From Pseudoflavonifractor phocaeensis (lineage in GTDB: Bacteria > Bacillota > Clostridia > Oscillospirales > Oscillospiraceae), in the NCBI RefSeq assembly GCF_021531815.1, contig NZ_JADYUM010000014.1, forward strand, positions 1 through 64,000: a stretch of DNA of 64,000 nt, in the 5' to 3' direction. The position numbers and the translations under genes were made by a program. Position 1 is the first letter of the stretch. Each line of letters starts with the position of its first letter. Positions 25,029 to 44,394 of the stretch are shown here, one piece after another. The notes beneath the pieces are model-generated. The model searched no databases, was not told where the DNA came from, and saw only the letters and a list, made by a program, of their open reading frames with translations.

Positions 25029-25071
25029 ACCGGATAGTGGCCCATTTGGCTGCTATCCGGTGTCTTTTTTT
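25029..25071 (+). terminator. Terminator after the relaxase remnant
   Basis: ACCGGATAG and CTATCCGGT with a 15-nt loop, then a seven-T run. It isolates the defence operon from the backbone genes. Confidence 0.88.
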
Positions 25072-25250: not shown

Positions 25251-25323
25251 TGATTTTCCGCGAGGTTTAGAGTAGAATAAATAGTTGGAGTAGTATGCCC
25301 TTTTGTAATGAATGGAGATTTGT

Positions 25324-25560
25324 ATGAGTTATTTATCGATCAGACAAACATCAGAAAAATGGAATATATCGCCCAGATGGATTAATGATCTCTGCGCAGA
25401 TGGAAGAATTCCCGGTGCGATGAAAATAGGCTCCTACTGGGCAATACCTGAAGACGCAAAAAAGCCTAAAGATGGACGCGTTAAAAGCGGAAGATACATA
25501 AAAACAAACACTTCGGATAAACCTGAAACCCAAGAACGAAATACGTCTTTTAAGAAGTAG
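25324..25560 (+). CDS. Small helix-turn-helix protein at the head of the defence operon
   Basis: A 78-residue MerR/excisionase-like DNA-binding protein: YLSIRQTSEKWNISPRWINDLCADGRIPGAMKIGSYWAIPEDAKKP is one winged HTH, followed by a basic disordered tail. The ATG at 25324 lies 7 nt after GGAG. It probably regulates the operon that starts 46 bp downstream; a recombination directionality role is less likely because the integrase is 25 kb away. Confidence 0.7.
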   Translation: MSYLSIRQTSEKWNISPRWINDLCADGRIPGAMKIGSYWAIPEDAKKPKDGRVKSGRYIKTNTSDKPETQERNTSFKK

Positions 25561-25605
25561 TAATCAAGAGCCACAGGTCTAATCTTAAGAAACGAGGATA
25601 CTATT

Positions 25606-27867
25606 ATGGCAATTCGCTTATGGCCACAGGACTATGAGAGAAAAGATCATATTACAAAAGCCGAAAAGGCTTTGTTGAGAAATGCTGCTCGAAATTTCAA
25701 GAGCGGCCATATTGCGGTTGGCATTGATCCTTTGGGTATGAGTACTGCCTCTGTAAAAATGGGCATGTATATTTCTTCAACAGAAGGCCTTCTTACATAT
25801 TCGCTTTATGAGGGTAAACTGGATCCCGCTAAGATCGACGCATATCTCATGTATGTAAAGATGGTTGAAGACCAGATTTATGCACGTTTACTCGATTCCA
25901 AAATGCTAATCGTGCGTAATGGAGACTATAAGGTATTGAAGTTCCCGTACAAGCATATTGTCATGTTCCCTGATGAGAAGCTGGGAATGGCTTCTGGCTC
26001 AAAAGCCCAATTGCAGAGATTGTACTCCTATGCGACATATGGCTTTTTTCAGCCAATCACCTCTGAAGGTAAAGAGAAACTTGTAAAAGATCTCCAAATG
26101 TTTGGGGATATCCGAAAATCCTACGACAAATCCTTCTCTGAAATATCGGATTTAGAGTGCCGTGCTATTTTCGAGCGCCTAGCGCCGGAATATACGGTCG
26201 TAATGAATGAGACTGAAAATGTCCGTATTGAATCGAAGAAGGTAGCAATATCCGATGAGGATTTGAGAATCACCGGACGCGAGCAAGAATACAAGACTTT
26301 CTTCCTGGATGAGTATCAGGTTGCTGTTGTCAACGACATGGGTAAAGGCCACAGGGTCATTCTTGCAAACCCAGGTGCAGGTAAGAGCGTTTTGCTTTTA
26401 TCCAAAGCGTTCAAGTATGCCAGTATGTATAAAGACTCAAATGTGCTGCTTACATGCTTTAACAACAACCTGGCCGATTCCTACAACTTCAAAAAAAGCT
26501 GTGCAAACTTCGGTAAGAACCATCACCTCTACATTATGACGCTTCACAAACTTGTGAAAAAGATCTATGAGGAGTGTTTGCATACTCGGTGTGCCACAAA
26601 CATAGCTACCGATGAAGAGATTCAAGCGTGTATAGAGCTTGTTCGTTCAGGCAAGGTTAAGCTGCGTTTCAAAGCTATTTTTATCGATGAAGTGCAGATA
26701 TTTGACCCTTTGTATCTGCAACTTTGTTATCTGCTTCTTGAACCAGGAGAAGACAGCGTTTTTCTCATGGCTGGAGACCTTAATCAAGCGGTTCGATCCC
26801 TTAGCCGTAAAGGTGATGCTCCCTGGAAACGTATTCCTGATGTCAAGCTCGATTTCACCGGCCGTGTTAGATACATAGAAAAGAATTATCGCAACAGTAA
26901 GGAAATCGGTGAGTACATCCGAAATATGCTCACCCTGATGAATAACCGTCTTTCCATGCTGGATATGATTAATTCTATGGAGTACGAGTATAACTCCTTT
27001 AAGGTTGGAGATAATCCGACAGTTGCTCTTAAGGTTAAAACCGCTGTAAACCGGATGGATATCCAAAAGGAAGTAATCGCGGCTGTAAAGGAAATTGCTA
27101 TCAAATATAAAATCGGATATTCCGATATTGCTGTGCTGTTTCCATATAAGCAGCATAAAATCATTAAGTATTTCTTCATGTATTGGCTGACAAAAGCTTT
27201 GGATGAAGAAGGTATACCGTATTCCCTAATCACATCTTCAGATGACGATCCTTTTGCAAAGAAAAAGTACAGTGAAACCTCGGGAGTTGTTGTATCAACA
27301 ATCGATTCTTCTCTTGGGTTGGATTTCAAGGCAGTTATTTTTACCGGTCTGTATCCATACAACTATGTTTTTGGCGAAAAGTCGAAGAAAGAAATCAAGT
27401 CTTGGTCTGCTATCAAAAAAATGGATGAAGACGACCAATCCAAGGTTCAGAGCCAGATGCGTTCAATGTACACGGCTTGTTCAAGAGCACGTGATGTATT
27501 GTATGTTATCAGTGATCTTACTCCAGGGTCACCTATGGAAGAGATCATTAATTGTGCGGGAATGAAAGTGGCTCCTTCTTCTGTCCCTACACCCGTTCAT
27601 AGAGGTCCCAAGACGACCGACGGGCAAAATACACCTAAAACAATCTTAAGAACCGCTTCATCCAACCGTTCAGATTCACTTCCGGCAGTTACGGATAAAG
27701 TGATTATTACAGCCAAGGTGAAAGAAACTGGAGCTACGGCCAAAATACAGGTTGATTTGAAAAAATATCCTTTGCAGAAGGGGATTATCGGCAAAAAAGT
27801 TGGAGAGTCATTTTCTTTTGGCCCTAATTCAAAAACATACACCATCCTCAGCATTGCTAAAGGATGA
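25606..27867 (+). CDS. SF1 (UvrD/DUF2075-like) helicase of the defence operon
   Basis: A 753-residue protein. The N-terminal 200 residues are not recognised and may hold a nuclease-like fold. LANPGAGKSVLLL (about residue 255) is Walker A, AIFIDEVQIFD (about 358) Walker B, KNYRNSKEIG an SF1 motif IV region, and TIDSSLGLDFKAVIFTG plus YTACSRARDVLYV motifs V and VI. The last 130 residues carry a Thr/Pro linker and a small beta domain. It is not the SNF2-type DrmD of class 1 DISARM. It stands 32 bp before the DrmA-like gene. Confidence 0.8.
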   Translation: MAIRLWPQDYERKDHITKAEKALLRNAARNFKSGHIAVGIDPLGMSTASVKMGMYISSTEGLLTYSLYEGKLDPAKIDAYLMYVKMVEDQIYARLLDSKMLIVRNGDYKVLKFPYKHIVMFPDEKLGMASGSKAQLQRLYSYATYGFFQPITSEGKEKLVKDLQMFGDIRKSYDKSFSEISDLECRAIFERLAPEYTVVMNETENVRIESKKVAISDEDLRITGREQEYKTFFLDEYQVAVVNDMGKGHRVILANPGAGKSVLLLSKAFKYASMYKDSNVLLTCFNNNLADSYNFKKSCANFGKNHHLYIMTLHKLVKKIYEECLHTRCATNIATDEEIQACIELVRSGKVKLRFKAIFIDEVQIFDPLYLQLCYLLLEPGEDSVFLMAGDLNQAVRSLSRKGDAPWKRIPDVKLDFTGRVRYIEKNYRNSKEIGEYIRNMLTLMNNRLSMLDMINSMEYEYNSFKVGDNPTVALKVKTAVNRMDIQKEVIAAVKEIAIKYKIGYSDIAVLFPYKQHKIIKYFFMYWLTKALDEEGIPYSLITSSDDDPFAKKKYSETSGVVVSTIDSSLGLDFKAVIFTGLYPYNYVFGEKSKKEIKSWSAIKKMDEDDQSKVQSQMRSMYTACSRARDVLYVISDLTPGSPMEEIINCAGMKVAPSSVPTPVHRGPKTTDGQNTPKTILRTASSNRSDSLPAVTDKVIITAKVKETGATAKIQVDLKKYPLQKGIIGKKVGESFSFGPNSKTYTILSIAKG

Positions 27868-27899
27868 GTTTTGAAATCATAGATACAAGGAGATAGCGT

Positions 27900-30800
27900 A
27901 TGGCAAACAATTATAACATTATGGCAGACTACATTGTCTCCAAGTACATTGAACGCGTTTCCGGAAGTGATATTGGAGATACTTTTGTAGACGAGGACCC
28001 TGCAGAGCGTGTAATGGTAGGTATGCTGGCAGAAAATCGTGTAGACGACAGTTTTGCCGGAGGATATGTTGAAAACAACAGCACTCGTTTTGAAAGCGTT
28101 CCGTCTATTAGCCTCTCTTTTATTGTGAAAAAGAATCAGACTGGAGTTCTTAACATTTGTCCTCAAGGTCTTCTTTTCTATTCTGTCGAACCAGACTATC
28201 AAAAGACCGTTGAGTATATGCTGACCAAATATCGCGAAAAAGATAACTTCCATTACGAGTCGATAGATCAGTTATGTGAGCGTTATCCGAAAGAGAAATT
28301 CTACCTTCCTTTGACTTATAAAAAGATAAGTATCGCGGATGTGATGGGGGGTGGTATTCAAATCCATTTAGATGCTCTTCCGGGAAGGACTTTTCATCTG
28401 GAAGATCTGATAAACGAAAGGCTTTCAGAGTTATCAGATCGGATTGCAAATGAAATCGCCATTATCCAGGCAGATCGCGTAACTTTTTTTGATCTTGCGG
28501 ACGAGACTGCCTTTAAGCTGAAAACTGCAGTAAGGGAAGAAAAGGTTCAGCCTCGTTGGAATATAGATATTTACTGCACTGTGATTGATGAGGGTGAATG
28601 CCTGAGGTTCCTTCTGCAAATGGTCAATAAGACTCCTGTAGAAGGAAAGAAGAATATAGGATACCTTCCTAAAGTTTTTAACGCAGGGATGCTTGTTAGA
28701 GGAAATGAAGGTATTGTATTCCAGGATATCAAATTGGACTATTTCAAGAGCAGCTACAAAGAGCGTTCGCTTGTTTATGCTGTTGCCGAAAATACTTCAG
28801 CCAGATATATCCCTGAAGAAAACGCCATCTGTACTGATAATATTCCCAAGTACTATCAGATGCGGTTAAAGACCAAGGATGATTACAATCAGTATGTTAC
28901 ATTCGACAATTTAATCGCGGACCCGATTGGCAATCTCACTTTTATCTATAATGCCATGAGAGAGGATTATTCTCGCTGTGAGGCAGAATTGCGCTCTACT
29001 TCTTTTGCGTCTGATATTGCCAAGGAAAAATTTGTTGAAGCTTTAAGAGAATACCAGCGTGAAATCAATCGTTTCAAGAACGGAATTGATCAGATCAAAT
29101 ATAAAGACAATGTAAAGAGAGCATTTCTTTACATGAACCAGACCTTCAGGCACAAAATGGAGGGCGAGCATCGCACAATCGTTGGATGGAGACTTTTCCA
29201 GATTGTTTTTATTGTGTCTTTGATTTGCGAAGTTATTCGGAGTGAATATCCGGATGATACAACTATCGCAGAAGTCGATATCGAAGTGGCAAATTTACTA
29301 TACTTCCCAACCGGTGGTGGTAAAACTGAGGCCTTCTTGGGTGTCAGTGTATTTGCTATGTTCTTTGATCGCCTCAGAGGAAAGAACGATGGTATTTCTG
29401 CTATTTTGAAGTATCCGCTTCGTCTGTTGGCAGTGCAGCAGTTGGACCGTGTTCTTACCATTGTAATGAAAGCAAACATTATCAGGGAACGGAGCGATGA
29501 CCTGTGCTTCACAAATCCTTTCCAGGTTGGCTTCTTTGTTGGAAAAAGCAATACGCCGAACAAGATTAACGCATATGAAATGTTGAGTGACCGCGGAGAA
29601 AAAGGAAAGTCAAAGAGCTTAATTCTTGAAAGTGATCAAGATACATTAAACGACTACTACCGCTTTATTGATACCTGTCCATGCTGTGGGAAAAAGATGG
29701 TTAATGTCCGCTTTAACCGAGACACATGGAAACTGGAGCATATCTGTGACAATCCAGAATGCAAAATTGGCGTATTCCCGCTATTGATAGTCGACAGTGA
29801 AATTTACAGATACCTCCCTTCGATTGTTGTAAGTACAATCGATAAGATGGCAATGTTGGGAACCAGTAATGAATTCCGTACCCTTTTCGGCCAGGTAAAA
29901 AAACGCTGCCGCATTCACGGATTTTCCAGTAGCTCCTACTGTGCTTGTGATGCATGCAAGAACCGTAACACCTTAGAAACTGTAGGCTTACTGAAAGATC
30001 CTATTCCTACGCTGTTTATTCAGGATGAGATGCATCTTGTTAAAGAAAGTCTGGGTACTTTCGATGCTCATTACGAATCCTTTATCAGTTATTACGCAAA
30101 AAAACTTGTTCCTCATTCTCAGAGAAAGCAGGTTCGTTTTATTGGAGCAACGGCCACTATTTCTATGTACAAGGAACATATTCATAATCTGTATCATATG
30201 GCAGGCAGACGCTTCCCTTGTGAATATCCGTCTGTTAAGAGCGGTGAAGATTTCTACTCCTATACGGATAAGAAAGACATAACAAGAATTCTGCTAGGAT
30301 ATGCACCCTATGGCCGTTCTATTACTGATGGCATGTGGGAATCTGTCTATATTATGCGCCTTGTTGTTTATCGGATGATTCAGTTCTTCGAAGAAGGCTA
30401 TAAGGAAATATGTGCAAATGGGTTTGACGGAACACTAGAGCAGTATAAAGACATGCTCTATGACTACTGGATCGAGCTTGTGTATAACAACCGCAAACAA
30501 GATGCAATGGAACTGGAAAATGCCTTCCAAAACCAGGGTAACAACTATCTGGAAGCCAAAGGCGTTCCTAGGTTTGTTATTAAACAGATGACAAGTGATA
30601 TTGATTTCCAGGATGTTAGAAAAACGCTCTTTGATATCCAGGCTAATCATAAAAATCATGAAAGCACAAATCTCATTTTGGCAACCAGTACGATTTCGCA
30701 TGGTGTCGATGAAGATTCATTTAATGTGATGTATTTCTTCGGAATGCCTAATAATAATGCGGAGTATATTCAGGCCTATTCCCGAACCGGCCGAAAATAC

Positions 30801-31301
30801 ACCGGCATTGTTATTGATATCATTAGGTTGATGCGAGTTCGCGATCGCTCCTACCTCAAGAATTTTGTGGTATTCCATCAAAACAGAGATGATCTGGTTG
30901 AATCAGTGCCGATTAACCGATGGGCTAAAAATGCTATTTATAGCACCCTTCCTGGCCTCCTTGCTGGACTGATCATGCAGTATTACACAGTACAAGTTGG
31001 TGAGGATAATCTTTATTCGGTTGTGAAAGTTAAAAAGCTGCTTACCGAAGGAGCTATTGATATTGAAGATGCTATTGAGAAATTGATTGCAATATACGGT
31101 TGCAATCCTCAGGAAAAGCTTTCTCTCGCCTACGAGGAAACTATTCGTGAAGAAGTGACCAATATCCTCACTGGCATCCGTAATGGAAACTTCGACAAGA
31201 ATGAATTCCTTTCTGATGCCATCGCAAAATTCTCAAGAGGTAAGAAAAAGCCGATGACTAGTCTTCGTGATACCGAAGAGCAGATTGAGATTAAGATCTA
31301 A
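27900..31301 (+). CDS. DrmA-like SF2 helicase (DISARM core)
   Basis: An 1133-residue helicase resembling DISARM DrmA in length and motif layout. YFPTGGGKTEAFLG (about residue 470) is Walker A. TLFIQDEMHLVKESLGTFDAHYE (about 706) is the DrmA-type motif II with DEMH and the following LG. SHGVDEDSFNVMYFFGMP and AEYIQAYSRTGRK (932-965) are the helicase C motifs. A four-cysteine zinc ribbon (CPCCGKK..CDNPEC, about 593-620) lies in the insertion. In DISARM, DrmA with DrmB forms the core complex that recognises unmodified or invading DNA. The DrmB-like gene follows by 12 bp. Confidence 0.82.
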   Translation: MANNYNIMADYIVSKYIERVSGSDIGDTFVDEDPAERVMVGMLAENRVDDSFAGGYVENNSTRFESVPSISLSFIVKKNQTGVLNICPQGLLFYSVEPDYQKTVEYMLTKYREKDNFHYESIDQLCERYPKEKFYLPLTYKKISIADVMGGGIQIHLDALPGRTFHLEDLINERLSELSDRIANEIAIIQADRVTFFDLADETAFKLKTAVREEKVQPRWNIDIYCTVIDEGECLRFLLQMVNKTPVEGKKNIGYLPKVFNAGMLVRGNEGIVFQDIKLDYFKSSYKERSLVYAVAENTSARYIPEENAICTDNIPKYYQMRLKTKDDYNQYVTFDNLIADPIGNLTFIYNAMREDYSRCEAELRSTSFASDIAKEKFVEALREYQREINRFKNGIDQIKYKDNVKRAFLYMNQTFRHKMEGEHRTIVGWRLFQIVFIVSLICEVIRSEYPDDTTIAEVDIEVANLLYFPTGGGKTEAFLGVSVFAMFFDRLRGKNDGISAILKYPLRLLAVQQLDRVLTIVMKANIIRERSDDLCFTNPFQVGFFVGKSNTPNKINAYEMLSDRGEKGKSKSLILESDQDTLNDYYRFIDTCPCCGKKMVNVRFNRDTWKLEHICDNPECKIGVFPLLIVDSEIYRYLPSIVVSTIDKMAMLGTSNEFRTLFGQVKKRCRIHGFSSSSYCACDACKNRNTLETVGLLKDPIPTLFIQDEMHLVKESLGTFDAHYESFISYYAKKLVPHSQRKQVRFIGATATISMYKEHIHNLYHMAGRRFPCEYPSVKSGEDFYSYTDKKDITRILLGYAPYGRSITDGMWESVYIMRLVVYRMIQFFEEGYKEICANGFDGTLEQYKDMLYDYWIELVYNNRKQDAMELENAFQNQGNNYLEAKGVPRFVIKQMTSDIDFQDVRKTLFDIQANHKNHESTNLILATSTISHGVDEDSFNVMYFFGMPNNNAEYIQAYSRTGRKYTGIVIDIIRLMRVRDRSYLKNFVVFHQNRDDLVESVPINRWAKNAIYSTLPGLLAGLIMQYYTVQVGEDNLYSVVKVKKLLTEGAIDIEDAIEKLIAIYGCNPQEKLSLAYEETIREEVTNILTGIRNGNFDKNEFLSDAIAKFSRGKKKPMTSLRDTEEQIEIKI

Positions 31302-31313
31302 GAGGGCGAAAAT

Positions 31314-33227
31314 ATGAAGAGAAGCAAAAATCAGGCTGTATATCGTTTTTTGCCGGAGATGTGGGTCTCTGAGAAGACAGAATCAAACGATGCTGTAACC
31401 GCCCGGATTCGAAACTGGAATCATATTAGAATGACGGGTATTTATGAAAACTTTATAGAAGGTGAAATCAAGCGCCAGATCCGCCTCTTTGGTAAAAGGG
31501 AAGGTGACATCAGCGCCTTTAACGTTGAGGATGGAGCACATTCTTTCTGCATTGTCGAACCTGCTTGTAATGAGGGTATTCCAGACATTATTGGTGAAAT
31601 CTCTCCCTTGGTGTTTTATTGCAGCTCTTGCGGAAAAGCTTTTGAAGAACGTGGAGCAAACGAGGTTGATAAATACACATGGAAGTGCCCTGATTGCGGA
31701 AAGCGTTCTGTAAAGCAGTTACAGATGATCTATTCTTGCGAGTGCGGATATGCACAGCCGGTTAAAATTCCCTTTGTGCGCGGAGTTAAGGATTTCAAAT
31801 TCAGACCTAACGAATCTCAGTACAAGATGTTCTATCGTAGTGGAAATAGTGAGAAGCCTGCAGAATTTGTGCAGATGTGCCCGAACTGCAACTCGAGGCT
31901 TGTTCCAGACAACGCCAGTTCTGGTCGAAACTATAAGCCATTTACATTGAGAATTATCAATCTTGTTGATGCCGGAAGCGGTCAGTTCTATGAAAAAGGA
32001 TTGGAAGCGCAAAAAACTATTGTTGCACGGTGGTTTGGCAAAATATCGACTGAAGACTTTGAATATATTCTGAACAATATTGAGCTGGCGTTCAGTGATG
32101 CATTTAGAAGTGACTCCAGAAGAAAGGAAGCTGAAGACCAGGTTCGTGGCCTAATTGCTATCGGCTTAGTACCTGAATCTGGTTTTGAAACGGCCGTTAA
32201 TAAAATTCTGGAGACAAACGCAAGTGGCCAGAGCTCCAGAAGCGTGGAGCAGTATGTAGCTGCGTGCGATGAACTGTTTGCAAAAAAGAAAGCTGAGAAT
32301 TTAATTGTCTATAACGAATGGTTGAATAACTTCTCTTTTAAGTTGATGCAGTACAATACCATCAAATATGCAAAGAGAACCATATCTCTACAAGATTCCA
32401 TTCAGCGTCAGTTAGATATGGAGTTCATCGATTCTGCTGATGAAATTTTGCAATTGAACCGGCGTATGGGAATCGCAAATATGCAGGTGTCCTGCGATAT
32501 TCAAATTGTGAATTGCACATATGGATATTCCCGTAAAGTTGCGGATCCTAAAAATTCAAATAACAGAAACTGCCGCTTAAAACTGAATGCATATGATCGT
32601 ACTAAAGATGGCACGGCTAACTTGGTTTACGGTGCGAAGCTTGATACAGAAGGAATACTTTTTGAAATTAGTCAGAGAAGAATCATTGAGTGGCTTTTCA
32701 GGAACGGAATCATTAGAGAAGAAATCCTTCCCGATATGGATGATGAACTGGCGATAAAAAAGTGGTTCTCTGAGTATGTGCATAGTGATGTCATATCTAT
32801 GTTTGGTGACATTGATGCACAGGAAGTCATTACCAAAAATGTTTTTGCACTGCTTCATTCCATGTCACATGCCTTTATCAATGCAGCTGGTGAAATAAGC
32901 GGCTTATCTAGTAATTCACTTACTGAAATTATAATTGCAGAAACCGCAAGTATTTTTATTTATGCGCAAACCAGTCAGGGCATCCCTCTCGGAGCGCTGT
33001 CTGGCATGGCTGAATCTAGCTATGCTTATTTCCTGAGGAAGGTTCTTGACGAGTCAAAAAATTGCGTGTTTGATCCGATATGTACAGAGCGTGATGATAC
33101 TGCTTGCAGTGCATGTCTGATTATTCCTGAGATTTCCTGCAACCATTTCAATGCAGAGCTTGGTCGTAAGTATCTGTATTCGATAGATGGTGTATCAACC
33201 CCTACTATTGGTTTTTGGGAGATGTAA
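31314..33227 (+). CDS. DrmB-like protein with DUF1998 (DISARM core)
   Basis: A 637-residue protein. Zinc-ribbon pairs occupy residues 100-200 (CSSCGKAF, CPDCGKR, CECGYAQP, CPNCNSR). The C-terminal DUF1998 is clear: LLHSMSHAFINAAGEISGLSSN-type sequence, YAQTSQGIPLGALSGMAES, and ACSACLIIPEISCNHFNAELGRKYL with its conserved cysteines. DrmB partners DrmA in every DISARM class. The tight spacing to the DrmA-like gene and to the NERD helicase gene (3 bp) supports a complex. Confidence 0.85.
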   Translation: MKRSKNQAVYRFLPEMWVSEKTESNDAVTARIRNWNHIRMTGIYENFIEGEIKRQIRLFGKREGDISAFNVEDGAHSFCIVEPACNEGIPDIIGEISPLVFYCSSCGKAFEERGANEVDKYTWKCPDCGKRSVKQLQMIYSCECGYAQPVKIPFVRGVKDFKFRPNESQYKMFYRSGNSEKPAEFVQMCPNCNSRLVPDNASSGRNYKPFTLRIINLVDAGSGQFYEKGLEAQKTIVARWFGKISTEDFEYILNNIELAFSDAFRSDSRRKEAEDQVRGLIAIGLVPESGFETAVNKILETNASGQSSRSVEQYVAACDELFAKKKAENLIVYNEWLNNFSFKLMQYNTIKYAKRTISLQDSIQRQLDMEFIDSADEILQLNRRMGIANMQVSCDIQIVNCTYGYSRKVADPKNSNNRNCRLKLNAYDRTKDGTANLVYGAKLDTEGILFEISQRRIIEWLFRNGIIREEILPDMDDELAIKKWFSEYVHSDVISMFGDIDAQEVITKNVFALLHSMSHAFINAAGEISGLSSNSLTEIIIAETASIFIYAQTSQGIPLGALSGMAESSYAYFLRKVLDESKNCVFDPICTERDDTACSACLIIPEISCNHFNAELGRKYLYSIDGVSTPTIGFWEM

Positions 33228-33230
33228 TTA

Positions 33231-34823
33231 ATGGCCATTATGTATCCGAAGAGCATATCAGAATATATGCCTACCGATTCAGAGAGAATTGTATATCATG
33301 AATTGAAAACCCAGCTTCCGGACACATTCGAAGTCTTCTATTCTGTCAAATGGACAGACTCTGAAGATGGAAAACTAATAAAGTCTGAAGCAGATTTCAT
33401 CGTGACGAGCCCTGAATATGGGTTTCTTTGTCTTGAGGTAAAAGGTGGCAGCAATATTCGTATCGAGGATAATGTCTGGTATGTCGGGGATGATACTCAT
33501 GGCGAGCGAAAATTGAAACGTTCTCCATATGACCAGGCTGAACGTAGCATGTATTATTTCACGCAAATGTTCTCCAATAAGTTCAATATGGATTATCAGG
33601 GGATTTTTGGTGCAGGTGCAGTCTTCCCTTTTTATCCAATCGGACCGGATGTTACGCTGGACAAAAGACATCGTGATTGCACGATAGACAGTAATGACTT
33701 GAACTCCATTCACAGCAAGATTAAATCCATGTTTCGCCTGTGGAAAGGTAAAAAATACCGTTGGTTTTATCCTAGCGGGCAGCATGCGGCTTTGATGGAA
33801 TTGATTCGTGAACGTTTGGCTATTTCTGCAGCAGCAGGAGCGTTGGTAAAATATAAGGACCAGCAACTTGACGTTATAAATCGTGTTCAGGACGGGTACG
33901 TTTACTTTTTGAAAAACATGAACCGTTTTTATATCAGAGGTGGCGCTGGAACCGGAAAGACCTGGATTGCTATGAAGATGGCGGAGGAGTCTTATTCACA
34001 GCATCAAAAAACATTATTCATGTGTGCATCTCCTCATCTCGCAAAGAAGGTGCGAGCCTCGCTGTCGCAAGGAATAGATGTATATGATCTTGCAGACCTT
34101 TTAGATCAATGTGTTGAGGAGATTGGTTTGTTGGCTCCACCTTTCTATGCAGGCGTAATGGAGCATCTTCGGGAGGTCTATCCACACTATGATGCAATAT
34201 ATGTTGATGAAGCGCAGGATCTTACTGAAGAATTAGCTCGATTTGTAAACACCTTGTTGGTTGATACGAACTCCAGACTGGGTGTGTTTTATGACGATGT
34301 TCAAATATTGCGGCAGGATAGTTTTAATAACGGATTTGCGATAGAATCACGCCCTTACCTGCTTCATGAAAATATTCGTAATACTGCGAATATCTATAAT
34401 TGGACTGCTGAAAAAACGCAACTCGGAACAGATGTAATATCTAATCCGGTTGAAGGCCCGATGCCAGTTACAGAATATATAACAGAAAAAGGTCAGATGA
34501 CCCACCGACTTGAAATGCTGTTTAGGAAGTATTTAGACGATGAGTATTTGCCTAATTCTTCACTGGTTCTGATCATCGATGATGTTGAGGCTTTTCAGTC
34601 AGAATATCCTGATGGAATTGCTAAGTGGAACTTCGTTCATCGTGAAGTGGCGATGGATAACGAAATCCAGATTGCATCCGTGGCGGAATATAAGGGATTA
34701 GAAACAGATATGGCTGTTTATATCCACTCGCGCGATGCGTCAGAGAATCTTAATTATATAGCATACACGAGAGCCAAATACTATTTGATTGAACTTGTGA
34801 GGGAATACGAATGGCACCGATAA
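33231..34823 (+). CDS. NERD-domain nuclease/SF1 helicase
   Basis: A 530-residue protein. Residues 15-130 are a NERD domain, a nuclease-related fold, with EADFIVTSPEYGFLCLEVKGG giving the E-D-ExK type active residues. The helicase part has RGGAGTGKTWIAM (about 236) as Walker A, AIYVDEAQDLTEE (about 324) as Walker B, and VAEYKGLETDMAVYI and YIAYTRAKYYLIEL as late motifs. It is short for UvrD. It overlaps the methylase gene by 13 bp. It could be the DNA-cutting arm of the DISARM-like system, which has no DrmC PLD protein. Confidence 0.82.
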   Translation: MAIMYPKSISEYMPTDSERIVYHELKTQLPDTFEVFYSVKWTDSEDGKLIKSEADFIVTSPEYGFLCLEVKGGSNIRIEDNVWYVGDDTHGERKLKRSPYDQAERSMYYFTQMFSNKFNMDYQGIFGAGAVFPFYPIGPDVTLDKRHRDCTIDSNDLNSIHSKIKSMFRLWKGKKYRWFYPSGQHAALMELIRERLAISAAAGALVKYKDQQLDVINRVQDGYVYFLKNMNRFYIRGGAGTGKTWIAMKMAEESYSQHQKTLFMCASPHLAKKVRASLSQGIDVYDLADLLDQCVEEIGLLAPPFYAGVMEHLREVYPHYDAIYVDEAQDLTEELARFVNTLLVDTNSRLGVFYDDVQILRQDSFNNGFAIESRPYLLHENIRNTANIYNWTAEKTQLGTDVISNPVEGPMPVTEYITEKGQMTHRLEMLFRKYLDDEYLPNSSLVLIIDDVEAFQSEYPDGIAKWNFVHREVAMDNEIQIASVAEYKGLETDMAVYIHSRDASENLNYIAYTRAKYYLIELVREYEWHR

Positions 34824-35641
34824 CATCTTTTATACGATGGGCTGGCGGTAAATCCTGGCTTATTCCATTTGTCCAAGACTTGACGGCAGACTTGAAATAT
34901 AACAATTACTTTGAGCCTTTCATGGGTGGAGCTTCCATTTTTTTTGCTCTTGATATAAAAAACAAAAGTTTTCTTTCTGACATTAACGAGGACTTGATAA
35001 ACGCATTCACTGGCGTGAGAGATAATGTTGAAAGCGTCATCGACTGCCTGAAAAATTGCAGCACGGACTCGGATAGCTACTATAGGATTCGTGCATTAGA
35101 GCCCACGGACCCCGTGGAGAGAGCAGCTCGCTTTCTTTATCTTAATGCCACTTCCTTCAATGGATTGTACCGAGTTAACAAGCTTGGGAAATACAATGTT
35201 CCTTATGGCCAAAGGTCTGTTTCATTCAACTATGACCGGCTGACGGACGCAAGTAAAAAGCTTTCAAATGCCGATTTGAGTTGTCATGACTTTGATAGTA
35301 TTAGAGCGTTATTATCGCCAGAAGATCTAGTCTTTTTAGATCCTCCCTATGCTGTTACAAAGGGAGACAACGGTTTCCTCGGCTATAATCCTAGATTTTT
35401 TTCACTAGAAGATCAGTACCGTCTTGGCGAGCTGATTGATTATATCAATTCCATTGGAGCGTATTATATTCTAACAAATGCGGCTCATGAAAAAATCGAA
35501 GAAATATTCTCTTCTAGAGGCCGCATGGTTTCATTAGAAAGAAATAGCTTGATTGGCGGGAAAAAAGCTTACCGCGGAAAAATCAAAGAGTACATTTTTA
35601 CAAATATTCCGGAAAGGAGCACCAATAATGGAACGGACTGA
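34811..35641 (+). CDS. D12-class DNA adenine N6-methyltransferase
   Basis: A 276-residue Dam-like methylase. FIRWAGGKSWL (residues 7-17) is the SAM motif I of the alpha D12 class, YFEPFMGGASIFF follows, and LVFLDPPYAV (about 175) is the catalytic DPPY. It would protect host DNA by methylating adenine in the system's recognition site, as DrmMI does in class 1 DISARM, although DrmMI itself is a different, larger methylase. The ATG overlaps the helicase stop region; its own end overlaps the DGQHR gene by 14 bp. Confidence 0.88.
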   Translation: MAPITSFIRWAGGKSWLIPFVQDLTADLKYNNYFEPFMGGASIFFALDIKNKSFLSDINEDLINAFTGVRDNVESVIDCLKNCSTDSDSYYRIRALEPTDPVERAARFLYLNATSFNGLYRVNKLGKYNVPYGQRSVSFNYDRLTDASKKLSNADLSCHDFDSIRALLSPEDLVFLDPPYAVTKGDNGFLGYNPRFFSLEDQYRLGELIDYINSIGAYYILTNAAHEKIEEIFSSRGRMVSLERNSLIGGKKAYRGKIKEYIFTNIPERSTNNGTD

Positions 35642-37934
35642 TTGGACTAAGATGGTATCCGAACGAGCATTGTCCACAGAAAAGAGTTTACGCAAAAAAA
35701 TCTTTGTATCAATGAAGATTGCTGCTTCTGACCTTCCGGCAATGATTGATCAGGGATGGGAAAAATCGAAAGAATATAAGAGCCCCAAATTTGTAGGCAT
35801 CACCAAGGAAAAACCAGCAAATGAACAATTCGAGGACCTAGTATGGCTTCTTTTTGCTAATATGGGCTTTTCAGAAATGAATGCAGGAAGCCCTTTCGAA
35901 GTTAGCTATGATTTTCATGATGACAGTCTGAAGTATCCTGTCAGTGTCGTAGCGGTTGACGATGAAACTATTTTGGTCGTTGTTTGCCAGGCGACTGACG
36001 AGGTGACTGAAAGAAGTTTCGCTGATGAAATCCAAGAATTTAGTTCTAAGATCTCCGGAATTCGAAAAGAAATATTGAAACAGTATCCTGGTCGAAAAAC
36101 AAAGTTCATCTGGGCTACACATAATTATATTACCAATCGGAGAGATCTTGCTCTTCTGGACAAGGCAGGCATTGCATACTTTAATGATTCAGCTATTGAG
36201 TACTATAGCGAATTGGCAAAGCATCTTGGTTCATGTTCTAGATATCAGCTTCTCGGTAATTTGTTTGCGAACCAGGAAATTAAGAACATGGATGACAGAG
36301 TCCCTGCAATCCAAGGCAAGATGGGAGGATATACATACTACTCCTTTTCTATAGAGCCGGAAAAGTTGCTGAAAATTGGATATGTGCTGCATCGATCTGA
36401 GGCCAATCAAAATATGATGCCGACATATCAGCGAATTATTAAAAAGAAGCGTCTTCAGGATGTTCGCGCTTTTATTAATGATGGTGGATACTTCCCGAAT
36501 TCAATTATCATCAGCATTGATTCAAACGGAAAAGGTCTAGCATTTGACCAATCCTCAACTAAGATTGATGGGACTATATCCAAGATAGGAATATTACATA
36601 TCCCGAAGAGATATCGTTCAGCATACATTATTGACGGACAGCACAGACTTTACGGATACTCTGACTCAAAATATGCAGCAACCAATACTATTCCCGTTGT
36701 CGCATTTGTGGATTTGGAAAGAACAGAACAGATTAAACTGTTTATGGATATTAATGAGAATCAAAAAGCGGTTCCGAAATCTCTGCGAGTTACCTTGAAT
36801 GCAGATATGCTGTGGGAGTCTCCTGATTTTAGCGAGCAGCGACAGGCATTGCGTTCTAAAATTGCTCAGATGCTCGGTGAGGAACCCACTTCTCCTCTCC
36901 ATGGCAGGGTTGTTATTGGTGAGAATGAGTCCACACCGGAAAGATGTATTACCGTAGAAGCGATTCAGTCTGCATTAAAAAAATGCCGGTTCTTTGATAC
37001 CTATGGGAAAAAGAACGCCCTCCAGAAATCAGGCACTTTTGATTGCCAGAATAATCAAGAAACCTGTGACCTTTTCTATCCGTTTATAGAAAAATGTCTT
37101 TTATACATTCGAGAGGCCTGCCTTGATGAATGGAATAAAGGTGATCGCGACAGTGGAATGCTGACTATGAACCGTGGTATTCAAGGTGTTATCCGTGTGA
37201 TTGACGATATTGTGAACATGCTAGTTGACAAAGCTATGATTTCACCGAAGTCGCAGGACCTTGATGACATGTTTGGTCTTATTCGCTACTATTTGAAACC
37301 TCTTGCAGATTATATAAACAACCTTACTGCTGAGCAGAGAAAAGATCTTAGAGGATATTTCGGTGGTGGCGCAGACACCCGTTTCTGGCGAGCATATCAG
37401 AAAGCTGTTTCTGATGCGAGACCTGATTTTAATCCGGAAGGCCTGGAAGAATACTGGCAGAATGAGACTAAGGTATATAACGAAGAAACCAAGAGTATGC
37501 TTCGTGAAATTGAGTCTAAAATTAAACTTATAGTTTCATCCAGACTTGAAGAGTATTATGGCGACAGCTGGCTCGTCAAAGGTCTGCCTAAAGCCATTTA
37601 TACGCGTGCCAAGGGTGAGGCTGATGAGGCTCGGTATGAACAGATCAGTAATGATGATGAGGATGTTGAGATTCCTATTTGGGATTATGTGACCTTGGCC
37701 GAATGCAAACCTATAATCCTTAATGGTAAGAACTGGTCCCTTCTTTTTGAGGATTCCATGGTGAGACCTGAAGAAGCAAATATGGTAGGTGGAAAAGACC
37801 CTAAAACAGATTGGATCTTAAGGGTTAATAGCATTATCAATAAACTAGCCAAAGATAGTTACAGTGTGCCGGTAGATGAATATAGCTATGTCAAAAGTGT
37901 ACATGAATGGCTGATGGGCATCCTTGTTTTTTAA
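35628..37934 (+). CDS. DGQHR-domain protein (DndB-like)
   Basis: A 768-residue protein. YIIDGQHRLYGYSDSKYA (about residue 336) is the DGQHR signature, and DLERTEQIKLFMDINENQKAVPKSL is the neighbouring ParB-fold part, as in DndB and related modification-system regulators. Residues 50-190 (FEDLVWLLFANMGF, IWATHNYI) may be a nuclease-like or REase-fold N-terminal domain. DndB controls phosphorothioate modification; DGQHR proteins in other islands are of unknown role. The ATG at 35628 follows GGAAAGGAGC, 14 bp inside the methylase gene. Confidence 0.8.
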   Translation: MERTDWTKMVSERALSTEKSLRKKIFVSMKIAASDLPAMIDQGWEKSKEYKSPKFVGITKEKPANEQFEDLVWLLFANMGFSEMNAGSPFEVSYDFHDDSLKYPVSVVAVDDETILVVVCQATDEVTERSFADEIQEFSSKISGIRKEILKQYPGRKTKFIWATHNYITNRRDLALLDKAGIAYFNDSAIEYYSELAKHLGSCSRYQLLGNLFANQEIKNMDDRVPAIQGKMGGYTYYSFSIEPEKLLKIGYVLHRSEANQNMMPTYQRIIKKKRLQDVRAFINDGGYFPNSIIISIDSNGKGLAFDQSSTKIDGTISKIGILHIPKRYRSAYIIDGQHRLYGYSDSKYAATNTIPVVAFVDLERTEQIKLFMDINENQKAVPKSLRVTLNADMLWESPDFSEQRQALRSKIAQMLGEEPTSPLHGRVVIGENESTPERCITVEAIQSALKKCRFFDTYGKKNALQKSGTFDCQNNQETCDLFYPFIEKCLLYIREACLDEWNKGDRDSGMLTMNRGIQGVIRVIDDIVNMLVDKAMISPKSQDLDDMFGLIRYYLKPLADYINNLTAEQRKDLRGYFGGGADTRFWRAYQKAVSDARPDFNPEGLEEYWQNETKVYNEETKSMLREIESKIKLIVSSRLEEYYGDSWLVKGLPKAIYTRAKGEADEARYEQISNDDEDVEIPIWDYVTLAECKPIILNGKNWSLLFEDSMVRPEEANMVGGKDPKTDWILRVNSIINKLAKDSYSVPVDEYSYVKSVHEWLMGILVF

Positions 37935-37964
37935 TTATCCAGCCATTTCCATGAGGTAAACAGT

Positions 37965-38945
37965 ATGGAAAACGGAACAAAACTCAGAATTCTATATCTT
38001 TACCAGCATCTAATCCAGAATACGGATCCGGATCATCCTGAGTCAACGGTCGAGCTGATGAAGATGCTGAAAGAAAAATATGATATCAAAGTCAGCCGCA
38101 ATACAATCAGTGATGATCTTCTTATGCTGAGTGACTGCGATTTGCAGGTAGAAGTCATCCACTCAACTCAGAACAAGTATTACTTTGACGGTCAGCTTTT
38201 CAGCGTACCGGAATTGAAGATTCTGATTGATGCGGTCTCTTCTTCCAAGTTCATTACCGAGCGTAAGAGTGAGGAACTTATCAACAAGCTTCTCACTCTC
38301 GTGCCCCGGCATAGTGCGGTGAAACTTCGCCGTCACATCTATGCATCAGACCGTGTTAAGTCTGATAATGAGCGAGGATATTACATTGTTGATGCTATCA
38401 ATGAGGCCATCGATACCAAGAGAAAGATATCATTCTGCTATACTGACTATGACATCAACAAGAAGCGTCAGCTGACAAATGATGGTATAGCCTATACTGT
38501 CAGTCCATATACGATGATGTGGGATGGCGATTACTACTATTTACGAGGGTACTGTGATGAACGCCAGGCCATGAGAACCTTCCGCCTGGATCGTATAGAA
38601 AAGCAGCCGGACATTCTCCGGGATCCTGCAGTTCCGAAGCCGGAAAATTACAGCATCGCAGAGTACAGCAAATCCGTATTCCGGATGTACGATACCGATG
38701 AGCCGCAGGAAGTTACCCTTCTCTGCAAAGCATCGACCATGAAGGTGCTGATCGATAATTTTGGCTTGGATGTAGATACCACTCCGGTGGATGAAGATCA
38801 CTTCCAGGCTAAAGTCATGGTTTGCACCAGCCCGACTTTCTACCGTTGGGTATTTGGCTTTGGTGACAGTATTAAGATCATTGGACCGATCAAAGTGGTC
38901 GAACAATATAGAACTATGTTAAATAATGCCTTAGAAAATCTTTGA
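37965..38945 (+). CDS. WYL-domain transcriptional regulator
   Basis: A 326-residue regulator. An N-terminal winged helix (LRILYLYQHLIQNT, VSRNTISDDLLMLS) is followed by the WYL domain, with SPYTMMWDGDYYYLRGYCD and FRLDRIEKQP, then the WCX C-terminal extension. WYL regulators such as BrxR control defence islands by binding nucleic acid or nucleotides. It lies in the middle of the operon, 30 bp after the DGQHR gene and 36 bp before the PLD-helicase gene, and may mark the join of two modules. It probably represses the operon until infection. Confidence 0.88.
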   Translation: MENGTKLRILYLYQHLIQNTDPDHPESTVELMKMLKEKYDIKVSRNTISDDLLMLSDCDLQVEVIHSTQNKYYFDGQLFSVPELKILIDAVSSSKFITERKSEELINKLLTLVPRHSAVKLRRHIYASDRVKSDNERGYYIVDAINEAIDTKRKISFCYTDYDINKKRQLTNDGIAYTVSPYTMMWDGDYYYLRGYCDERQAMRTFRLDRIEKQPDILRDPAVPKPENYSIAEYSKSVFRMYDTDEPQEVTLLCKASTMKVLIDNFGLDVDTTPVDEDHFQAKVMVCTSPTFYRWVFGFGDSIKIIGPIKVVEQYRTMLNNALENL

Positions 38946-38981: not shown

Positions 38982-41900
38982 ATGCTTTCAAATGGCATCT
39001 ATGAGCAGATCGTGAATACACGCATCAGCAATGAGCTGGCTCTGCTTGATAAAGAAAAATACGATATTGAGTTGGAGAATCTTTCTGCCGATGATGCCAG
39101 ACGAATTCTGACTATTTACATTTCCTATGTTATCGGTCAAGGTCTAAAGGTCATTCGTGAAAGCTATCCAAGTAGCAAGGATTCAGAGGCACTTCTGGCA
39201 CAGATAAAGCTGTGCAATGCCATTGTCAGGGATATCGCTGCGCATGCAGAAGAGCCTGATTTTGAGGATAATATCATTCTTGAAAAGGGCGAGGTGCTTA
39301 CCTCTCTCTATCAGAAGCTGGATTCTGCCCGAGGTATTGCAGCAATGAAAGCGGTTCGCCCGGAGACATCTCTGGTGGAAAATGCACTGTTTACCGGTGC
39401 CAAAAGCGAGCCTAGCATGTTATCAGAGCTCAAGCGGGAGATCGTTACTTCAGATACGATCGATCTTCTGGTCTCCTTTATTAAATGGAGTGCGATCCGT
39501 CCGCTTCTTTCGGAACTTACAGAGTTCACAAAGCGTGAGGGTACTCGTCTTCGCGTGATTGCGACAACCTATACACAGGCGACAGACTACAAGGCTATTG
39601 AGGTCCTCGCATCGCTCCCGAATACGGAGGTCAAGATCAATTACGAAACAAACCATGCTCGTATGCACGCTAAGTCCTACCTTTTTAACAGAAATACCGG
39701 CTTCACAACGGCCTATATTGGTTCATCGAATCTTTCTAATCCTGCCCTTACCGGTGGCCTAGAATGGAACGTGAAGGTCACAGAACAGGAATCCTTTGAT
39801 ATTGTTCGGAAGTTTTCCGTAGCCTTTGAAAGCTACTGGAACGATGCATCCTTTGAGACCTTTGACCCTAACGATCCGGAGTGTTGTAAGAAGCTTCGTG
39901 AGGAACTGACGAAAACACCGTTCCATACGGGGACTGACCGTAGGCTCCTGGTAGAGATCCGGCCATATGCTTACCAGCAGGAAATTCTTGACCAGCTTTC
40001 TGCGGAACGAGAAATTTATGGACATTATAAAAATCTGATCCATGCTGCGACCGGAGTTGGTAAGACAATTATTGCCGCCTTTGACTATAAACGATTTAAG
40101 GAGACTCATCCAAGAGCCAGACTGCTCTTCGTTGCACACCGTAAGGAAATCCTGGAGCAGAGTGTCCAGAAATTTCAGGAAGTCTTAAATGACTTCAACT
40201 TCGGAGAGCTCTACGTGGACGGCCACAAACCGACAGACATTGAGCATCTCTTTGTCAGCATTCAGTCCTTTAATTCTGCGAAATTTACAGAATGGACCTC
40301 TAAGGATTTCTACGATTACATTGTCATCGATGAATTCCATCATGCCGCAGCCGATTCGTATCAGGCACTTCTGTCCTACTATGAGCCTCAGATCCTTCTG
40401 GGCTTAACGGCAACACCGGATCGAATGGATGGCAAGGATGTTCTGGGATATTTTGATGGGCGTATCGCCTCCAAGATGCTTTTAGGCGATGCCATCGACC
40501 GGAATCTTCTAAGTACCTTCCAGTACTATGGTGTATCCGATGATGTGGACTATTCCCATGTAAATTGGGTTCGCGGCCGCTACGATACCAGTCAGCTGGA
40601 AAAGATATATACTGCGGATACTATCCGCTGTGCGTTGATCTTAAACAGCGTAAAAAAATATGTGACGGATATTCATTCTGTGAAGGGCCTTGGCTTCTGC
40701 ATCAGTGTTGCGCATGCGGAATACATGGCGAAGTATTTCAATGATCACGGAGTTCCGTCTATTGCGTTGTCTTCTAAGAGTGCAGATGATATTCGAACGG
40801 ATGCGAAGGAAGCGCTGGTCAGTGGTAAGATCAACTTTATCTTCGTTGTGGATCTGTACAATGAGGGCGTTGATATTCCGGTGATCGACACCGTGCTTTT
40901 CCTTCGTCCTACAGAAAGTGCAACCATCTTCCTGCAGCAGCTTGGCCGTGGCCTTCGATTGGCTCCCGGTAAGGAGTGTCTGACTGTACTGGATTTTATT
41001 GGCCAGGCAAATAAGAAGTATAAATTCGCCATGAAATTCGAGGCCATGGTTGGCAAGGGCCGGAAGTCCCTGCGTAAGCAGGTTGAGGAAGGCTTCTCCA
41101 ATCTTCCGAGAGGCTGTTATATCGAGCTTGAAAAATACGCAAAGAGCTATGTCTTGGAGAATCTGAGACAGACCGATAACAATAAGACTGCGCTCATTGA
41201 GCAGGTAAGAACCTTCGAAGAGGATACTGGTCTTCCGCTTACCCTGGATAACTTCCTGACCGAATATAATCTGTCTCTTTATGATTTCTATCAGAACACC
41301 GGCGCTCGTTCCCTTCATCGACTGAAGAAATGGGCCGGACTGACCGAGAATACTAGGGATGTTGATGACAAGGTCTACAGCATGCTGACGGGCCTGTTCC
41401 ATATTGATTCCGCAAAGCTTCTGGATTATTGGATCCGGTATATTGAGGGGGATACAGCACCCGCTTCTGAAGAAGAGCGTCTGATGCGGAACATGCTGTA
41501 TTACACCTTTTACAAAAAACACCCGAAGCAGCTGCATTTTGCAGATATCGATGCCGGTATCAATGCAGTACTTGGAACTGATTTTGTACGAGACGAGGTT
41601 CTGCAGATCCTGCGCTACAACCGCAGTCATCTGGGTTTTGTATCACGCCGAAATGAGTATGGTTTTACCTGTCCTCTTGAGATGCACTGCCGGTATAACA
41701 CCAATCAGGTCATGGCCGCATTCGGACTGTTTTCTGAAACGGATTCGCCGGAATTCAGAGAGGGTGTAAAGTACTTTGAAGATAAGAAGACGGATGTCTT
41801 CTTTATCAACCTGAATAAATCCGAGAAAGACTTCTCTCCGTCTACCATGTATGAGGATTATGCGATTAATGCACATCTTTTCCATTGGCAGACGCAAAGC

Positions 41901-42143
41901 AGAGACAGACAGGCAAGTCCTAAAATCCAGCGATACATTCATCATCGCGAAAGCGGAAATGCCATCTCGCTCTTTGTTCGTGAGTATAAGAGAAATGGTT
42001 CTTATACAGCACCGTTTACCTTCCTTGGCAACGCTGATTATGTGAGCCATAACGGAGAGCAGCCGGTAAACTTTATCTGGAATCTCCATACTGCAATCCC
42101 GGCAGAGCTTCTGCCTCAGGCAAACAAGAGCATTGCATTATAA
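38982..42143 (+). CDS. PLD-nuclease/SF2-helicase/DUF3427 protein
   Basis: A 1053-residue multidomain protein. An N-terminal helical domain is followed by a phospholipase-D-type nuclease motif HARMHAKSYLF..GSSNLSNPALTGG (about 224-260). An SF2 helicase follows: HAATGVGKTIIAA (about 353), VIDEFHHAAAD (447), LGLTATPDRMDG, and LFLRPTESATIFLQQLGRGLRL. The C-terminal 350 residues form DUF3427. The layout suggests a DNA translocase that cuts. A single HKD motif per chain means a dimer would be needed. It begins the second half of the operon, before the NUDIX-methyltransferase gene (26 bp). Confidence 0.87.
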   Translation: MLSNGIYEQIVNTRISNELALLDKEKYDIELENLSADDARRILTIYISYVIGQGLKVIRESYPSSKDSEALLAQIKLCNAIVRDIAAHAEEPDFEDNIILEKGEVLTSLYQKLDSARGIAAMKAVRPETSLVENALFTGAKSEPSMLSELKREIVTSDTIDLLVSFIKWSAIRPLLSELTEFTKREGTRLRVIATTYTQATDYKAIEVLASLPNTEVKINYETNHARMHAKSYLFNRNTGFTTAYIGSSNLSNPALTGGLEWNVKVTEQESFDIVRKFSVAFESYWNDASFETFDPNDPECCKKLREELTKTPFHTGTDRRLLVEIRPYAYQQEILDQLSAEREIYGHYKNLIHAATGVGKTIIAAFDYKRFKETHPRARLLFVAHRKEILEQSVQKFQEVLNDFNFGELYVDGHKPTDIEHLFVSIQSFNSAKFTEWTSKDFYDYIVIDEFHHAAADSYQALLSYYEPQILLGLTATPDRMDGKDVLGYFDGRIASKMLLGDAIDRNLLSTFQYYGVSDDVDYSHVNWVRGRYDTSQLEKIYTADTIRCALILNSVKKYVTDIHSVKGLGFCISVAHAEYMAKYFNDHGVPSIALSSKSADDIRTDAKEALVSGKINFIFVVDLYNEGVDIPVIDTVLFLRPTESATIFLQQLGRGLRLAPGKECLTVLDFIGQANKKYKFAMKFEAMVGKGRKSLRKQVEEGFSNLPRGCYIELEKYAKSYVLENLRQTDNNKTALIEQVRTFEEDTGLPLTLDNFLTEYNLSLYDFYQNTGARSLHRLKKWAGLTENTRDVDDKVYSMLTGLFHIDSAKLLDYWIRYIEGDTAPASEEERLMRNMLYYTFYKKHPKQLHFADIDAGINAVLGTDFVRDEVLQILRYNRSHLGFVSRRNEYGFTCPLEMHCRYNTNQVMAAFGLFSETDSPEFREGVKYFEDKKTDVFFINLNKSEKDFSPSTMYEDYAINAHLFHWQTQSRDRQASPKIQRYIHHRESGNAISLFVREYKRNGSYTAPFTFLGNADYVSHNGEQPVNFIWNLHTAIPAELLPQANKSIAL

Positions 42144-44304: not shown

Positions 44305-44394
44305 TGAAAAGATGGCGTTTAGTCCCAGGTATAAATTATAAAGCGATGTGAGGTGCACGCTATTTTATGCACCTGCGTTCCGTTAAAATTGTCA

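Follow-up and report, generated by a model that had tools for sequence, protein, structure and literature searches.

A DISARM-like gene cassette of Pseudoflavonifractor phocaeensis with a NERD helicase and a Dam-DGQHR module probably represents an immune system of an undescribed type

DISARM (defense island system associated with restriction-modification) typically includes a methylase. In Serratia, DrmAB restricts phages, prefers DNA with 5' overhangs and is damped by methylation; DrmC is reported to be dispensable and often missing (passages in PMC9142583). The PADLOC definitions, as set out in part of PMC9252829, require all of DrmA, DrmB, DrmC, DrmD and DrmMI for type I and all of DrmA, DrmB, DrmC, DrmE and DrmMII for type II. 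Other systems are also built on YprA-family helicases, namely, ARMADA, BRIGADE and TALON (Bell et al. 2025, PMC12458937). In passages of the same paper, a separate DUF1998 gene marks the DISARM branch among YprA-family systems, TALON consists of a YprA helicase, a NERD nuclease and TPR-CSD and TBP proteins, and ARMADA type II carries a GajB-like UvrD helicase. Here we analyzed a stretch of 64,000 nucleotides from Pseudoflavonifractor phocaeensis (contig NZ_JADYUM010000014.1, positions 1 to 64,000), called the window below, which contains six co-oriented genes, all on the + strand at 25606-37934. They encode a superfamily 1 (SF1) helicase, DrmA, DrmB, a NERD nuclease-SF1 helicase fusion, a Dam-like methylase and a DGQHR protein (Table 1). 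The set has a new composition and was met again in several further bacteria, so it probably represents an immune system of a type not yet described.

The original prediction, made from the letters of the sequence, had presented these genes as a variant DISARM-like system. Its six genes, with their positions, strand and spacings, were all reproduced from the list of open reading frames: gaps of 32, 12 and 3 bp separate the first four genes, and the NERD/Dam and Dam/DGQHR junctions overlap by 13 and 14 bp. The 14-bp overlap presumes that the DGQHR protein starts at ATG 35628, the reading frame itself being open from 35553; an AAGGAG site lies upstream of this ATG, and the DGQHR orthologues in three related loci (L006, L007 and L008) start at the matching place. 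Profile scans with Pfam, PADLOC and NCBIfam took in ten proteins encoded at 23911-43171, and in them the DrmA and DrmB calls held up, with PADLOC scores far above noise. Both proteins also match the solved Serratia DrmAB complex in sequence (DrmA as given in Table 1; DrmB at 1.2e-6 to 7s9v_B). With the NCBIfam DISARM models, DrmA reaches 353.6 bits against a curated cut-off of 950 and DrmB 76.5 bits against 240; since these scores lie below the curated cut-offs, we regard both as divergent DISARM relatives. The motifs GGGKTE, QDEMH and SRTGR are found in DrmA, and DrmB matches Pfam MZB at 6.2e-5, slightly under the gathering score. The window thus holds the DISARM core, two adjacent but separate genes for the superfamily 2 (SF2) helicase DrmA and the DUF1998 protein DrmB. 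The alignment to Serratia DrmA joins window residues 429-1025 to residues 567-1190, and the trigger loop (Serratia 176-232) lies outside the aligned part. BrxH models gave weak matches to DrmA (5e-4) and to a PLD-domain helicase encoded farther downstream (4e-4).

The PADLOC models for DrmC, DrmD, DrmE and DrmM gave no match at 1e-3 in the six cassette proteins. The statement that drmD, drmE and a PLD-type drmC are missing is therefore correct for these proteins, but a PLD-domain protein is encoded nearby, beyond the range that had been considered (Table 1). Neither published DISARM definition describes the ten proteins scanned, among which only DrmA and DrmB of type I are present; for type II, neither DrmE nor a cytosine methylase was matched, and DrmC gave a weak match only. 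This bears out the proposed placement outside class 1 and class 2. The DrmE-type (class 2) loci L036 and L039 share with the window DrmA, DrmB, an adjoining NERD-SF1 helicase and a DNA methylase but carry DrmE (Pfam DrmE_C) and a Dcm-like methylase (recognized by our own profile only), whereas the window has the SF1 helicase, a Dam-type adenine methylase and the DGQHR protein; L036 and L039 also lack a DrmC match and are not complete class 2 systems. The DrmD-type (class 1) loci L030-L034 share DrmA and DrmB with the window but differ in having DrmD and a PLD-type DrmC (by PADLOC in L030, L031 and L033, by our own profiles in the rest), and our locus-derived profiles found no SF1 helicase, NERD helicase, Dam or DGQHR protein in them.

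Dpd systems are alike in having a DpdB-like DGQHR protein (PADLOC DpdB 1.4e-25) and a YprA-family helicase. However, the window DGQHR protein scores 86.7 against the NCBI DpdB cut-off of 300, the window helicase is split in two genes, and no DpdA-type transglycosylase or preQ0 gene was matched in the ten proteins scanned, so that the Dpd definition does not apply. The other partners of ARMADA, BRIGADE and TALON are absent from the six cassette genes; the window also departs from TALON in that its NERD domain is fused to an SF1 helicase and no TPR-CSD or TBP protein was matched among the ten. The six-gene set was not found described in the open-access literature searched, with supplements and most subscription papers outside that search. 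The main text of PMC12458937 makes no mention of "DndB" or "Clostrid", and the set is not described in passages of the CoCoNuT paper (PMC11090510), of the Dnd and BREX surveys (PMC10853773 and PMC12839542) or of a domain review (PMC10952713).

How widespread is the set? DrmA searches of four overlapping genome sets, each including the window's own genome, gave matches in 7/199 genomes at 1e-3 and in 8/391, 9/394 and 16/398 at 1e-20. Neighborhoods were compared at 15 places in 14 genomes, leaving out three weak matches and then five and twelve genomes, all with DrmA at no more than 37% identity; 4 of 85 plasmid records with DrmA were also compared. No phage record with DrmA was found, nor any relative of DrmA or DGQHR in viral contigs, where the patterns reach close relatives only. 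Searching genome contigs for DrmA with one pattern set gave nine loci, and a DrmA-Dam fragment (L010) was left out of the counts. Using tblastn with the window proteins, we recovered the six genes, in unchanged order, from four further Bacillota genomes (metagenome-assembled genomes, MAGs; L003, L006, L007 and L008), the SF1 gene of L003 being truncated by the contig start. These are all four of the loci in which DrmA is 67-74% identical to that of the window and the contig is long enough. L002 (Lachnospiraceae) and L005 (a Spirochaetaceae MAG) carry SF1-DrmA-DrmB as far as the contig end, and L004, a 3.6-kb contig, holds only DrmA-DrmB (DrmA 77% identical). Across the five full sets, window counted, protein identities are 54-81%, and all five keep the DrmA and NERD-SF1 helicase motifs, the NERD D/ExK residues, the Dam DPPY motif and the DGQHR motif. 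The original prediction had named two outcomes that would speak against it, DrmA/DrmB scores below noise and no repeated co-occurrence of the surrounding genes with the pair; neither was obtained, because the scores are far above noise and the six families recur together.

As a control, we compared 28 DrmA loci, 11 in the window clade (the window, L002-L009, L028 and L083) and 17 outside it (L030-L043 and L084-L086); part of these loci also served to build the profiles, and the counts are valid for this sample. An SF1 helicase of the window type is present in 10/11 loci in the clade (L004 is cut) and in 0/17 outside (L084 is cut before that place). The NERD helicase occurs in 7/11 (L002, L004 and L005 are cut before it, and L009 is without it) versus 2/17, and the Dam-DGQHR pair in 5/11 (L028 has Dam upstream only) versus 0/17. 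DrmC/PLD was found in none of the 11 and in 9/17 outside (the profile did not pick up the PLD helicases encoded in the window and in L007), and DrmE in none of the 11 and in 4/17. DrmD occurs in 5/17 outside loci; within the clade the DrmD profile matched once (L006, 133 bits), hitting a distinct HEPN-SNF2 protein encoded after DGQHR. In a DrmA tree, the ten SF1-bearing rows lie on one side of a branch (Shimodaira-Hasegawa-like approximate likelihood ratio test 100, short search), apart from the sampled DrmD- and DrmE-bearing loci, and in a more careful tree of 23 rows without L083 the window's nine-row set has support of 100/100; L004 is absent from both trees. Deeper DrmA relationships are unsure because several outside rows have long branches.

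The NERD helicase gene sits where DISARM has DrmC, and its nuclease residues D and ExK are intact in 9/9 sequences compared, window counted. By the locus-derived profiles, none of the 9 NERD-bearing loci among the 28 has a separate DrmC/PLD gene, and none of the 9 loci with DrmC/PLD has a NERD helicase; the NERD-bearing loci include the two DrmE-type loci L036 and L039. The suggestion that the NERD protein could stand in for DrmC is supported by this position and mutual exclusion, in a small sample that is phylogenetically clustered, seven of the nine NERD loci belonging to one clade.

The SF1 helicase motifs GAGKS, DEVQ and GDLNQ are kept in 7/7 sequences compared (window counted), and L083 has the versions GSGKS, DEVQ and GDKSQ. 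SF1 matches were found in 12 plasmid records, none covering at least 80% of the protein, and in 5/196 genomes of the class, where the window's own genome alone gave a full-length match. In the plasmid records and class genomes searched, no full-length SF1 relative was found away from DrmA, which speaks for the reading favored below. The N-terminal ~220 amino acids form a domain without family assignment. A degenerate NERD domain, suggested by eye and by the order of strands and helices in a weak model (mean predicted local distance difference test [pLDDT] 49), is not claimed, as profile comparison gave a probability of 0.11 of 100. A cryptic DrmE was likewise rejected at the sensitivity reached, the hhalign comparison of SF1 and DrmE alignments, with few sequences, giving a probability of 0.34 of 100. 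A short GreA/GreB-C-like stretch at the C-terminal end (E value 0.076, under the Pfam cut-off) was seen in the window and L007 only, among the seven sequences compared.

A four-gene core of SF1 helicase, DrmA, DrmB and NERD helicase with an exchangeable tail describes the unit better than a fixed set of six genes. In genome G501 (L028/L044; DrmA 60% identical), the four core genes are kept, and a protein of 1375 amino acids (L044:7851-11978), with no Pfam or PADLOC match, directly follows the NERD helicase in place of Dam-DGQHR; a type II methylase, which shares 33% identity with the window Dam, is encoded upstream of the core together with a restriction enzyme and an AIPR protein. In genome G1227 (L083, 2724-18069), genes for a radical SAM protein and a GHKL ATPase come after the core, whose identities are 36-39% for DrmA, 28% for SF1, 30% for DrmB and 34% for NERD; a second GHKL ATPase lies upstream, and a protein of 424 amino acids with weak FapA/bactofilin-like matches is encoded between SF1 and DrmA. 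This radical SAM protein is 43-44% identical over ~430 amino acids to that of cassettes on Novosphingobium and Rhizobium plasmids (L045 and L046), where it occurs alongside GHKL proteins and a DGQHR protein related to that of the window over its full length (30% and 27.5% identical). The plasmid cassettes thus share their DGQHR protein with the window and their radical SAM protein with L083. The claim of one functional unit agrees with the compact layout and the recurrence of the six families, with joint action of the products presumed; the exchange of the tail speaks against a fixed six-gene system.

The methylase of the window tail is a Dam-family D12 class N6-adenine methyltransferase (TIGR00571, 198.3 bits versus a cut-off of 114.85), and its nearest solved structures are M.DpnII 1 (2dpm, 7.7e-43) and then a DNA adenine methylase (2g1p, 1.5e-27). 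The motifs YRVN and NVPYG, whose residues we take to be the readers of the target site, are present in 5/5 cassette methylases and in M.DpnII 1, and a GATC site is predicted for the enzyme. The DGQHR protein matches TIGR03187 above the cut-off; DndB relatives are described as ParB-superfamily proteins in part of PMC10853773. Its N-terminal 240 residues, for which Pfam gave no family, look restriction-endonuclease-like with loss of the catalytic lysine (VVVCQA in the window at the lysine-lacking site, aligned with ECHA in L006 and ECRQ in L045), and the motif, together with a low-confidence model, suggests a restriction-endonuclease fold. The protein is rare: among 398 genomes of the phylum, the window's own alone passes 1e-20, and partial matches were found in four phage records.

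What could such a cassette do? With moderate confidence, we favor a DISARM-kind system directed against phages or plasmids, made of the four-gene core and an attached module for self/non-self discrimination, here the Dam-like methylase and the DGQHR protein. By analogy, the cassette most likely works like DISARM, as a modification-gated helicase-nuclease acting on foreign DNA, yet outside class 1/2. We observed its gene content, conservation, intact catalytic motifs and module exchange; the defense function, the GATC site, the division of labor and the order of steps we infer. The methylase would mark host adenines, probably within GATC. DrmAB would load on foreign DNA with single-stranded 5' ends, as reported for Serratia DrmAB (passages in PMC9142583), and the SF1 helicase may assist unwinding. 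The NERD-SF1 protein would cut the exposed strands, a role proposed for DrmC, and the DGQHR protein, a relative of ParB/Srx-type NTPases, may read or gate the modification state.

Several observations weigh against the DISARM-kind system that we favor. Pairwise identities among the five full sets are, in its favor, well correlated between DrmA and DrmB (r = 0.94) and between DrmA and DGQHR (r = 0.91; 10 non-independent pairs), but those of SF1 are out of step with the other genes (r from -0.43 to 0.12; the L003 SF1 is partial). Dam tracks the non-SF1 genes weakly (0.43-0.52), and for NERD the agreement is moderate (0.52-0.63). Because of these weak to moderate correlations, the six genes were not clearly inherited as one set. 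L009, a distant relative of the window locus that belongs to the clade by its DrmA, has SF1-DrmA-DrmB, with the SF1 and DrmA frames broken, and lacks the NERD helicase. In two of the nine NERD loci (window and L007), a PLD-domain helicase missed by the DrmC/PLD profiles lies just downstream; the one in the window scores weakly on DrmC models (21.8 bits). The large DGQHR protein occurs in L045 and L046 without any of the other five cassette genes, and seven other window proteins tested, DrmA and DrmB included, have no match there at 1e-3 (~34 kb each). The genome of L007 has on another contig (L052, 19.9 kb compared) a Dam-DGQHR pair, 48% and 39% identical, without the other cassette genes, DrmAB among them, and DrmB was found in that genome at the L007 contig only. 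The GATC prediction draws on motif similarity, and the AlphaFold models are poor (pLDDT 45 and 49).

The pair in L052, the cores without a Dam-DGQHR tail in L028/L044 and L083 and the weak correlation of Dam with the core genes would also fit two adjacent systems, a four-gene DISARM-like nuclease and a separate Dam-DGQHR restriction or regulatory pair without gating of DrmAB. We consider this unlikely in view of the overlaps that run from NERD through Dam to DGQHR, the same order in the window and 4/4 close loci with enough sequence, and the methylase typical of DISARM (PMC9142583, in part). It is quite improbable that the unit is larger and reaches to the HNH gene at 44304, with the WYL regulator and the PLD helicase as a nuclease arm. 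Between 25061 and 44394 no terminator-like site of similar strength lies on the + strand, where the longest match, of 10 pairs, falls within drmB. The downstream gaps are 30, 36 and 26 bp, and L007, too, has a PLD helicase after DGQHR; however, other genes follow DGQHR in L003 and L006, L008 ends just after DGQHR, WYL relatives go with DrmD-type DISARM in L030 and L033, and at the boundary GC (guanine-plus-cytosine) content rises from 0.41 to 0.44-0.46. The presence of DrmA and DrmB might point to an ordinary DISARM of class 1 or class 2 that has decayed or is incomplete, a reading that is very improbable and already contradicted by the lack of DrmC-, DrmD-, DrmE- or DrmM-type matches in the six proteins, by the same composition with open frames in other genomes and by the failed alignment of SF1 with DrmE.

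We tentatively raise a broader idea, itself doubtful, of a platform in which a DISARM-like helicase-nuclease core plugs into interchangeable DNA-modification modules, either Dam with a DGQHR reader or radical SAM-GHKL. The link is double because both the radical SAM and the GHKL proteins of L083 have homologues beside the full-length DGQHR relative in alphaproteobacteria. The radical SAM-GHKL module possibly installs or reads an undescribed DNA modification. With an intact NERD nuclease-helicase in the place of DrmC and a modification module that is swapped around a kept core, the lineage makes two questions on DISARM testable by part swapping, its recognition of self versus foreign DNA and its choice of nuclease. 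Large DGQHR proteins, beside methylase or radical SAM genes, would also gain a place in a defense pathway.

Table 1. Features of the cassette and its surroundings in the window
Feature	Position	Strand	Evidence
SF1/UvrD-like helicase (P0001, 753 amino acids), core gene 1	25606..27867	+	Pfam UvrD_C and UvrD-helicase
DrmA, SF2 YprA-family helicase (P0002, 1133 amino acids), core gene 2	27900..31301	+	PADLOC DrmA 1e-134; PDB 7s9v_A 1.7e-51
DrmB, zinc ribbon and DUF1998/MZB (P0003, 637 amino acids), core gene 3	31314..33227	+	PADLOC DrmB 4.4e-44
NERD nuclease-SF1 helicase fusion (P0004, 530 amino acids), core gene 4	33231..34823	+	Pfam NERD 5.9e-10; PADLOC RTasNERD-Hel 1.5e-46
Dam-family D12 class N6-adenine methyltransferase (P0005), tail module	34811..35641	+	TIGR00571 198 bits
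DGQHR/DndB-type protein (P0006, 768 amino acids), tail module	35628..37934	+	TIGR03187 171 bits; DndB 7e-18
HTH_17 protein, 78 amino acids, possible regulator heading the unit	25324..25560	+	Pfam HTH_17 1.2e-6, above gathering score
WYL-domain regulator, neighbor, not counted as core	37965..38945	+	Pfam WYL 9.7e-16
PLD-ResIII helicase-DUF3427 protein, type IV restriction-like, neighbor	38982..42143	+	PADLOC mREase_IV 3e-220
Terminator-like hairpin upstream of the unit	25029..25061	+	14-pair stem, then T run; consensus match only
Terminator-like hairpin beyond the HNH gene, where the co-directional run may end	44394..44419	+	11-pair stem, T run; consensus match only

Downstream of the six genes and co-directional with them, the interval 37965-44304 encodes the WYL regulator, the PLD-helicase-DUF3427 protein, a NUDIX-methyltransferase fusion and an HNH protein. 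Co-transcription farther downstream is possible because the two terminator-like hairpins flank the whole co-directional run. GC content is 0.406-0.416 in the six genes and 0.44-0.46 in these four. A 66% identical copy of the WYL gene follows the DrmD-type DISARM of L030, and no WYL gene follows DGQHR in L003, L006 or L007, the L008 contig ending there. A relative of the PLD helicase (47% identity) directly follows DGQHR in L007, and none is present in the sequence compared after DGQHR in L003 and L006.

The locus is in a low-GC mobile-element region, to judge from its genes and composition: GC content drops from ~0.60 to 0.41, and the region carries RepA_N, ParA, ParB, relaxase-like and integrase genes near a tRNA-Arg gene. 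This setting speaks for the favored reading. The first 26 bases of this tRNA-Arg(CCT) gene (17333-17409) are repeated 279 bases upstream at 17054-17079, perhaps left behind by an insertion at the tRNA. The 3' end of the tRNA has no second copy in the window, and there is no direct repeat of at least 14 bases between 16.8-18.0 and 51.4-53.5 kb; a wider scan found none linking the ends.

Further observations concern the related loci. In L010 (2032-3153), two fragments of DrmA share one reading frame with the end of a Dam gene that comes after them, and a short match to DGQHR lies beyond; the arrangement is either a cassette deletion remnant or an assembly chimaera. L084, L085 and L086 represent another DrmA-DrmB lineage; the pair lies beside apparent type I restriction genes in L084 (judged by size and order) and after a sigma-70 factor in L085 (by Pfam) and L086 (by sequence likeness). 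The alphaproteobacterial cassettes (L045:15899-26301 and L046:12182-22570) comprise, by their annotation, two DGQHR proteins, the radical SAM protein, GHKL-type ATPases and a PIN-like protein, and possibly form an undescribed DNA-modification or defense system. Finally, a HEPN-SNF2 helicase and a TmtA-like protein of 1593 amino acids (L006:20195-23405 and L053:2941-7722) come after DGQHR in L006.

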